Part shown: positions 30,006-32,235 of the stretch, one piece after another
How positions within the stretch are numbered: position 1 is the first letter of the stretch
Layout: every line of letters starts with the position of its first letter
Assembly: GCA_010032545.1 (NCBI GenBank)
Contig: RGPT01000011.1
Coordinates: forward strand, 1 to 35,490
Length of the DNA: 35,490 nt
Direction of reading: 5' to 3'
From: Alphaproteobacteria bacterium
Lineage (GTDB): Bacteria > Pseudomonadota > Alphaproteobacteria > Reyranellales > Reyranellaceae
The notes under the pieces: generated by a model
What the model was told of the DNA's origin: nothing
Seen by the model: only the letters and a program-made list of their open reading frames with translations
Databases searched by the model: none
Translations under genes and position numbers: made by a program

Positions 30006-31598
30006 CTAGGCGTTCGCGCGGCGGTCGCGGCGCGCGCCGGCCTTGCCTTTGGCTGCGCCCGAGGAAAGGTCCTTGCGCAGCTCGATGCGCGCCTCGCCTT
30101 TCAGCACCCGCCTGCCCTCCTCGGTCACCGACCAGCGGCCATGCTCCATCAAGTCCTGGGCGATCAGGCCGACCGCCGAGAGCTGGCGAAAGATCGAGCG
30201 CCACTCCCCCGCCTTGCGGCCCGAGCCGACGCCGAAGGTGGGCAGCCGGTCGTGGTTGAACTTGGCCACGTTCTCGGTGCGCTCGCCGGTCAGGATGGCC
30301 ACGAGATGTTCCACGCCGAAGCGTTCGCCGGTGCGCAGGATCGCCGACATCGCCTTCTGGGCTTCGATGGTGCCGTCGAAACGCTCGACGCCTTCGACGC
30401 AGAGATCGCAGTTGCCGCAAGGCTCGGATTGTTCGCCGAAATATGCCAGCAGTGTCTGGCGACGGCAGCGCGGCGCCTCGGCCAGCGCCAGCAGCGCCCC
30501 CAGCCGCTGGCGCTCGATGCGCTTGCGCTCGTCCGAGGAGTCGCTCTGCTCGATCTGCAGGCGGCGGAGCTGCATGTCGCCCAGGCCATAGAGCGTGAGC
30601 GTGTCAGCCGGCAGTCCGTCGCGGCCGGCGCGACCGATCTCCTGGTAGTAGGCTTCGACGTTGGACGGCAGATCGGCATGGCAGACGAAACGCACGTCGG
30701 GTTTGTCGATGCCCATGCCAAAGGCGACGGTGGCGGTCATCACCACGCCGTCATCCTGCTGGAAGGAATCCTGGTTGGCGTCGCGCACGCGCTTGTCGAG
30801 GCCTGCGTGATACGGCAGCGCACGCACGCCTGCTTCGGCCAGCGTCGTGGCCAGTTCCTCGACCTTGCGGCGCGACGCACAATAGACGATGCCACTCTCG
30901 CCCTCGTGGGCACGCACGAACGCCAGCACCTGGCGAGAGGAACGCTCCTTGGTCTGGAAGGCGAGCCGCAGGTTCGGCCGGTCGAAGCTGCGCACGAAGA
31001 CGCGCGGCGACGAAAGGGGAAACAGCTTCTCGACGATGTCGCCACGGGTCGGCGCGTCGGCCGTCGCCGTCAGCGCCAGCGTCTGCAGCCGGCCACCGAT
31101 CTGGCGCGCGATATTGCCCAGGGTGAGGTACTCCGGCCGGAAATCGTGACCCCACTGAGAAACGCAATGCGCCTCGTCGATCGCCATCAGGGTGACGTGG
31201 GCCTCGGCCAGCATCTCGACCGTGTCGGGCCTGGCCAGCCGTTCGGGGGCGACATAGAGCAACCGCAACTCACCCGTGCGAAGCAATCCCATGACCCGGG
31301 CATTCTCGGCGGGCTCGTTGCTCGAGTTGAGGCTGCCGGCGGCAACCCCGGCAGCGGTCAACGCCTGCACCTGATCGCGCATCAGGGCGATCAGCGGCGA
31401 GACGACGAGGGTGAGACCCGGCCGGACGATGGCCGGCAACTGGTAGCACAGCGACTTGCCGCTGCCGGTCGGCATGACCGTGAGCACGTTCTCGCCCGCC
31501 AGCACGGCGCGGACGATCTCCTCCTGGCCAGGCCGGAATTCGCTGAAGCCGAAGACGGAGTGTAGCAGCGCGTGAGCAGTCGAGAGGGCGTCGGTCAT
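30006..31598 (-). CDS. recQ: ATP-dependent DNA helicase RecQ, without an HRDC domain
   Basis: 530 residues from ATG 31598; upstream in-frame sequence to 31769 is non-conserved. Helicase motifs are FGFSEFRPGQEEIV (motif 0), MPTGSGKSLCYQLP (Walker A), MAIDEAHCVSQWGHDFRPEY (DEAH and the aromatic-rich loop), LALTATA, VRSFDRPNL, YCASRRKVEEL, VAFGMGIDKPDVRFV and YYQEIGRAGRDG. The RQC zinc site is C-x16-C-x2-C-x2-C in the stretch ending CGNCDLC, and a winged-helix region follows. Typical RecQ of ~600 residues ends with an HRDC domain; here the protein ends after the winged helix with a Lys/Arg-rich tail (GAAKGKAGARRDRRANA). It unwinds DNA in recombination and fork repair. Confidence 0.92.
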   Translation of the reverse strand: MTDALSTAHALLHSVFGFSEFRPGQEEIVRAVLAGENVLTVMPTGSGKSLCYQLPAIVRPGLTLVVSPLIALMRDQVQALTAAGVAAGSLNSSNEPAENARVMGLLRTGELRLLYVAPERLARPDTVEMLAEAHVTLMAIDEAHCVSQWGHDFRPEYLTLGNIARQIGGRLQTLALTATADAPTRGDIVEKLFPLSSPRVFVRSFDRPNLRLAFQTKERSSRQVLAFVRAHEGESGIVYCASRRKVEELATTLAEAGVRALPYHAGLDKRVRDANQDSFQQDDGVVMTATVAFGMGIDKPDVRFVCHADLPSNVEAYYQEIGRAGRDGLPADTLTLYGLGDMQLRRLQIEQSDSSDERKRIERQRLGALLALAEAPRCRRQTLLAYFGEQSEPCGNCDLCVEGVERFDGTIEAQKAMSAILRTGERFGVEHLVAILTGERTENVAKFNHDRLPTFGVGSGRKAGEWRSIFRQLSAVGLIAQDLMEHGRWSVTEEGRRVLKGEARIELRKDLSSGAAKGKAGARRDRRANA

Positions 31599-31703: not shown

Positions 31704-31728
31704 GGAACTCGTTCGCCCGACGCTCGTT
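31704..31728 (+). promoter_or_regulatory. EcfG-type general-stress promoter
   Basis: GGAAC at 31704-31708, a 16-base spacer, then CGTT at 31725-31728. This matches the alphaproteobacterial sigma-EcfG consensus (GGAAC, 16-17 bases, CGTT) exactly. It lies 25 bases before the ATG of the DUF3309 gene and just upstream of its AGAGGAGG ribosome site, so transcription would begin with a very short leader. Confidence 0.6.
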
Positions 31729-31753
31729 GTCCTTGAGAGGAGGCGCTCCGAGC

Positions 31754-32020
31754 ATGATCGTCCTGGCAATTACGCTCCTGCTGGCCGCGACAGGGGCGTC
31801 CGTCATGCCTTGCTGGCGTTACAGCGCAAGCTGGGGCTATGGACCCGGTGCCTGCATTGGCCTGCTCTTGGTCGGGATCGGCGTCCTCGCGGTGACTGGG
31901 CGGGTCGGAGGGGCCGAGGTGCTCAGCGAGCGTTTGGCCGCACCGCCAAAGTCGACCGTCATGATTGATGTTTCAGCGTTCGACGTCACTCGACCAAAGA
32001 CCATCACGCTTATCGAGTGA
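31754..32020 (+). CDS. DUF3309-family small membrane protein with a C-terminal extension
   Basis: 88 residues from ATG 31754, ten bases after AGAGGAGG. Two hydrophobic segments flank the family core: MIVLAITLLLAATGASVMPCW, RYSASWGYGPGA, then GLLLVGIGVLAVTGRV. DUF3309 proteins are usually about 50 residues. Here a 35-40-residue soluble tail (EVLSERLAAPPKSTVMIDVS...) follows the second helix. The function of the family is unknown. The EcfG-type promoter suggests induction in general stress. Confidence 0.75.
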   Translation: MIVLAITLLLAATGASVMPCWRYSASWGYGPGACIGLLLVGIGVLAVTGRVGGAEVLSERLAAPPKSTVMIDVSAFDVTRPKTITLIE

Positions 32021-32094
32021 CCGCAGCGAGACAGATCGTACACGCCTGTCGAAAGGGCCTAGGGTCCACGCCCACAAACAGGAGGAGACCCGAC

Positions 32095-32235
32095 GTGGCC
32101 CAGAAGCAACAACGTGGTAATCGCGAAGCCAAGAAGCCGAAACAGGACAAGACCAAGAAGATCGTTTCGAGTTCGCCGTTCGCGTCGTCGAATTCCAACC
32201 CGGGCGCCAAGGCAGCGGCCAACAAGCGCAAGTAG
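32095..32235 (+). CDS. 46-residue lysine-rich basic protein of unknown function
   Basis: Starts at GTG 32095 behind GGAGGA with an 8-base spacer; the frame upstream to 32017 has no ribosome site. The sequence is very polar (AQKQQRGNREAKKPKQDKTK ... GAKAAANKRK), with no hydrophobic segment and no cysteine. RGNREAKKPK resembles short alphaproteobacterial hypothetical proteins that I have seen but cannot name. The strong ribosome site and biased composition make it likely to be real. It may bind nucleic acid through charge alone, but that is a guess. It lies 74 bases after the DUF3309 gene and could share its stress promoter. Confidence 0.62.
   Translation: MAQKQQRGNREAKKPKQDKTKKIVSSSPFASSNSNPGAKAAANKRK

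Follow-up and report, generated by a model that had tools for sequence, protein, structure and literature searches.

A predicted EcfG-type promoter before a DUF3309 gene, and a family of small basic proteins, in Reyranella

The described systems closest to this locus are the EcfG general stress regulon and the Pfam family DUF3309 (PF11752). The EcfG motif of Sphingomonas melonis has been published as GGAAC-N17-20-GTT (PMC6599016). DUF3309 is a family of unknown function that was named in one paper found, where a single member appears in a list of proteins released by Asaia bogorensis (PMC12502724). A literature search returned no paper joining Reyranella, stress and sigma factor.

The locus studied here lies in a contig of 35,490 nucleotides from a draft genome of the Reyranellaceae; this whole stretch is called the window below. 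It resembles the EcfG regulon in the sequence and spacing of a predicted promoter, P1, and in that phyR, ECF sigma genes and a HisKA_2 kinase gene occur together at one locus in the genus. It differs in that a search of the draft genome containing the window did not find the regulator. The features are:

31704..31728, + strand: P1, predicted EcfG-type promoter, with -35 GGAAC at 31704-31708 and, after a 16-nt spacer, -10 CGTT at 31725-31728 (direct sequence reading; conserved in g1-type loci)
31738..31743, + strand: Shine-Dalgarno sequence of g1, AGGAGG, 10 nt before the ATG (direct sequence reading)
31754..32020, + strand: g1, 88-aa DUF3309 protein (Pfam PF11752; hydropathy; 22 orthologues aligned)
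32030..32065, + strand: P2, promoter-like block of g2, with GACAGATCGTACA at 32030-32042 and TAGGGT at 32060-32065 (conserved pattern upstream of g2)
32080..32085, + strand: Shine-Dalgarno sequence of g2, AGGAGG, 9 nt before the GTG (direct sequence reading)
32095..32235, + strand: g2, 46-aa lysine-rich protein with GTG start and pI 11.3 (translation; relatives aligned)

Divergent from g1, at about 30006-31598 on the - strand, is a gene that we take from its translation to be recQ-like, and downstream of g1 and g2 lies what is, judging by the translations, presumably a CoA-transferase-like gene pair. A recQ match is present in 21 of the 22 loci where g1 and g2 are adjacent (in the remaining one g1 is at the contig edge) and also in 7 g1-type loci without g2.

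A DUF3309 gene with a C-terminal tail

The g1 product matches PF11752 over residues 2-51 (model positions 3-50 of 50) with E=1.7e-10 and 41.3 bits, above the Pfam gathering cut-off of 22.3. Hydropathy indicates two hydrophobic segments, at about residues 1-16 and 33-47. Of 30 canonical loci examined, 29 encode proteins of 51-52 aa, and canonical members match PF11752 at 2e-23 to 2e-21. Unlike these, g1 belongs to a divergent subfamily built around PCWRYSAxWGYGP, and about 37 residues follow the DUF3309 match. A preliminary description of this DNA had noted a DUF3309 core with an unusual tail of 35-40 residues, and the comparison confirms this, as the tail is found in all 22 aligned g1 proteins. 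It is under weak constraint (pooled pN/pS 0.55 vs 0.26 in the core; 13 overlapping pairs). Protein length is 77-110 aa in the 22 g1-g2 loci. Of the 16 g1-type loci without adjacent g2, 15 encode proteins of 65-112 aa and one has a frame of 209 aa.

The EcfG-type element and its conservation

The preliminary description had also reported an exact GGAAC-16-CGTT before a strong ribosome site, and direct reading agrees, with P1 followed by the AGGAGG of g1 and an ATG at 31754. Taken alone the motif is at chance level. With spacers of 15-17 nt, one match is found in the window where 0.66 are expected, and in the window's own genome GGAAC-CGTT with spacers of 16-17 nt occurs 50 times, compared with 68 for the reversed pattern. 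Genome-wide GGAAC-N16/17-CGTT enrichment was tried as evidence for an active EcfG system and dropped, as the reversed control was not consistently exceeded across the genus. When 30 of the 50 sites in the window's own genome were classed as coding or intergenic, the result was uninformative because long open frames cover all 30, P1 included. What makes the motif convincing is the comparison across species.

In 38 upstream regions of g1-type genes from the genus, the exact motif was found in 36; its reverse complement occurred in none and the reversed pattern in 1, and the mean over 500 shuffles was 0.08. These regions come from the 22 g1-g2 loci and 16 loci without adjacent g2. One further g1-type locus (L207), found after this test and then added, does not have the exact motif, which gives 36 of 39. 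The spacer is 16 nt in 34 of the motif-bearing loci and 17 nt in the other 2. Among the g1-g2 loci the exact motif is present in 20 of 22; at L150 and L156, GCAAC replaces GGAAC and AAGGC stands directly before AAC, which by its sequence reads as a -35 shortened by 2 bases. The 16 loci without adjacent g2 were recognised by a local profile among 20 further DUF3309 regions, themselves a subset of the DUF3309 matches, and all 16 carry the motif at -33 to -80. The profile did not recognise the remaining four regions (L187-L190) as g1-type, and these were counted with the glycine-rich genes described below.

Earlier column counts were partly invariant by construction because the alignment was anchored on the motif, and the version relied on here is unanchored. 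For the 22 g1-g2 loci it shows full invariance in 7 of 9 core columns and agreement of 20 of 22 sequences in the remaining two. Outside the core, 3 of 101 columns are invariant: two at the gene start and one a G that stands immediately before the GC ahead of the motif. With all 39 g1-type loci, conservation is 36-39 in the core columns, and the three best columns elsewhere reach 37, 37 and 36; the bases GGC ahead of the motif come close to the core in conservation. The g1-type loci are kin and not independent events, and the contrast between the core and the variable spacer is a stronger argument than the locus counts. This cross-species footprint supports the idea of an EcfG-type promoter before the DUF3309 gene, as had been proposed, and g1 is probably a gene of the EcfG regulon and likely a general-stress gene.

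Other DUF3309 genes carry the motif less often. In the 30 best-scoring canonical loci of the DUF3309 search (27 from the genus and 3, L078, L079 and L083, from other families), the exact motif was upstream of 5, all in the genus and all with a 16-nt spacer; on the same DNA the reverse complement occurred once and the reversed pattern not at all. In a glycine-rich group of DUF3309-like proteins, 53-64 aa long, 10 of 23 loci examined have an EcfG-type motif upstream, as a raw count (L187-L189, L198, L200, L202 and L208-L211). From these counts, several kinds of small DUF3309-type membrane protein look like EcfG targets in the genus, the g1 subfamily almost always.

PhyR and linked sigma genes

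Of 101 genomes, 57 have a PhyR match (PF22233) above cut-off, and 49 of these belong to the genus. Among the 22 genomes that carry the g1-g2 pair, 18 have such a match; the window's own genome and 3 of the other 21 do not. The PhyR of one genus locus, L164, matched solved protein chains, best 4g97 (1e-60), and also 4qic, which is named PhyR (4.6e-55). The sigma factor linked to phyR matched PDB 5uxx, deposited as an RNA polymerase sigma factor, at 2e-37. Among the models shown, the phyR-linked sigma genes score above cut-off only for TIGR02937, a general ECF model, and fall short of the PRK-type cut-offs; because only general ECF models pass, the name EcfG is used here on the strength of place beside phyR and of similarity. 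A HisKA_2 kinase gene follows phyR in L164. Two related ECF sigma genes stand side by side near phyR in L163 and L164.

The promoter motif occurs at these loci too. GGAAC-N15/17-CGTT was found in 7 of 8 same-genus phyR loci and also in L163, L164 and L165, in total 10 of 11 genus phyR loci (raw counts); two phyR loci from other families had none. This would fit control by EcfG of its own neighbourhood, as expected. Thus the EcfG-type reading in the preliminary description finds support in a genus that has PhyR and PhyR-linked ECF sigma genes, in loci with the same motif.

The window's own draft genome gave no convincing match to these regulators. A search for NepR, made in this genome alone, had a best E of 1.8; the sigma query reached only 0.14; the PhyR sigma-like domain matched nothing at E<=1, and full-length PhyR only receiver domains. 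The assembly is rated 100% complete and is in 567 contigs, so a gap in the assembly is possible, as is loss or divergence of the genes.

An alternative that we regard as unlikely is that, at least in this lineage, P1 is recognised by a different ECF sigma factor whose -35 is of the GGAAC type. Such a factor would explain the lack of convincing EcfG, PhyR and NepR matches, and the assembly does contain other sigma-region-4 matches, one over cut-off on contig C91 and a weaker one on C528. The AAGGC conserved before the motif is also outside the EcfG consensus given in PMC6599016. However, same-genus phyR loci carry GGAAC-N16-CGTT and PhyR accompanies most pair-bearing genomes, and the fact that P1 is intact argues against a long-standing loss of its sigma factor. 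We therefore favour recognition of P1 by EcfG, on which g1 would depend.

The g2 family and its relation to g1

The second gene begins 74 nt after g1. It had been described as encoding a 46-residue lysine-rich protein with its own strong ribosome site, and direct reading bears this out, with 10 K and 3 R in 46 aa. The start codon is GTG in the window and ATG in nearly all relatives. We found g2 in 41 of 101 genomes, 39 in the genus with the window's own included. The window protein aligns over its whole length with its relatives, a family marked by an N-terminal [RG]-x-N-[RK]-E-x-KKPK. Conservation is highest towards the N-terminus, and a comparison of 11 diverse members, ten from the genus and one from a different family, shows 12 invariant residues. 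The family matched no model in Pfam, NCBIfam or PHROG, and a literature search for the strings NREAKKPK, NREKKKPK and NKEAKKPK found none, although papers rarely print such strings. We know of no name for it.

In named genomes g2 occurs at no fewer than 42 loci. Hosts among the matches listed include Microvirga, Bradyrhizobium, Bosea, Methylocystis and Stella, further Cupriavidus, Paraburkholderia and Rhodocyclaceae, and others. A motif of the cold-shock domain was seen near g2 in 5 of 33 listed loci outside the genus, in 0 of 44 Reyranella g2 loci and in 0 of 77 control loci, which were shorter and came mostly from this genus. Named loci were assigned by hand to Reyranella or to other groups, with the g2 sequence among the criteria. 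The cold-shock-linked loci outside the genus are L114, L117, L133, L135, L136, L142 and L144. In L133, L135, L142 and L144 the cold-shock motif is about 350-415 nt upstream of g2 on the same strand, and L114 and L117 are included by BLAST cluster only; two Microvirga loci have upstream genes that share one BLAST cluster.

Between the two genes lies the P2 block. Its core, CG[TG]AC-N17/19-TAxxxT, is a pattern drawn up with the sequences already in view; 38 of 42 Reyranella g2 loci contain it (42 of 43 places were read, G006:C69 being left out). The shuffle mean was 0.1, and the reversed and reverse-complement patterns each gave 0 of 42. The spacer is N18 in 37 of the 38 matching loci, and exact CGTAC-N18-TAGGGT occurs in just 17 of 42. 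A genome scan with AATCGTACA gave 2 matches in 61 genomes, both before g2; it could not find the window copy because the window has GATCGTACA. The block is spaced like a sigma-70 promoter, CGTACA occupying the -35 position; the sigma-70 promoter scan itself found none. From its conservation, P2 is probably the promoter of g2. A crude screen found a short hairpin (5-6 pairs, 5-nt loop) in the g2 leader in part of the genus (L050, L058, L059, L152-L156, L160 and L162), with stem sequences that differ between loci, and none upstream of the window g2.

The preliminary description had suggested a stress-induced two-gene unit, to be checked by conserved adjacency. Adjacency, as a DUF3309 gene within 600 nt of g2, was found in 22 of the 39 g2-bearing genus genomes. 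In the other 17 the local profile found no g1 near g2 in the DNA fetched, and at the 33 listed loci outside the genus no DUF3309 gene was recognised within the 2.5 kb or less covered on each side. Conversely, no g2-like motif was seen near g1 in 16 fetched g1-type loci. Adjacency is seen in part of the genus, and a fixed unit, as first put forward, is not supported; judged by these neighbourhoods, the pair is a frequent arrangement in one genus and not a fixed partnership.

A single stress operon of g1 and g2, with P1 as its sole promoter, is, in our view, highly improbable. The genes are on the same strand with a short gap, the terminator scan found nothing on the + strand (and one chance-level terminator-like site on the - strand), adjacency is frequent in the genus, and the P2 pattern is absent from 4 of the 42 g2 loci. 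Yet P2 lies inside the gap and is also present in 16 of 20 g2 loci without g1, and each gene is found without the other, as the counts above show. Separate control of g2 from P2 is thus the reading we prefer, and g2 could still be co-induced by read-through from P1. A chance origin of the GGAAC-N16-CGTT match, for which the 0.66 matches expected in the window might speak, is negligible given 36 of 39 g1-type loci with the motif, the shuffle mean of 0.08 of 38 and flanks and spacer less conserved than the core.

We consider it likely that P1 is an EcfG promoter for g1, a stress membrane protein, and that g2 is separately controlled from P2. Under stress, phosphorylated PhyR would titrate NepR and free EcfG. 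RNA polymerase with EcfG would then start at about 31735, leaving a very short leader from which g1 is translated. Its product may be a small membrane protein of the DUF3309 kind with two segments, probably in the inner membrane, acting in envelope, osmotic or desiccation stress. We infer that g2 would be made from P2, with its sigma-70-like spacing, and read-through from P1 may add to its expression in stressed cells. The g2 protein is basic and probably unfolded. A speculative idea, which we hold to be rather doubtful, is that g2 represents an undescribed, widespread alpha- and betaproteobacterial family of tiny basic proteins associated with RNA or ribosomes. In this genus it would have come to lie behind the gene of a stress-induced membrane protein, so that transcription reading through from the EcfG promoter increases its level under stress, and elsewhere it would sometimes be placed behind cold-shock-protein genes.

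These data tie DUF3309 to the general stress response, with the motif before 36 of 39 g1-type genes and, in the canonical and glycine-rich groups, before 5 of 30 and 10 of 23. They also bring out g2 as a conserved family of about 45 residues that is named by none of three family libraries, and this unnamed family is the most interesting point for follow-up.
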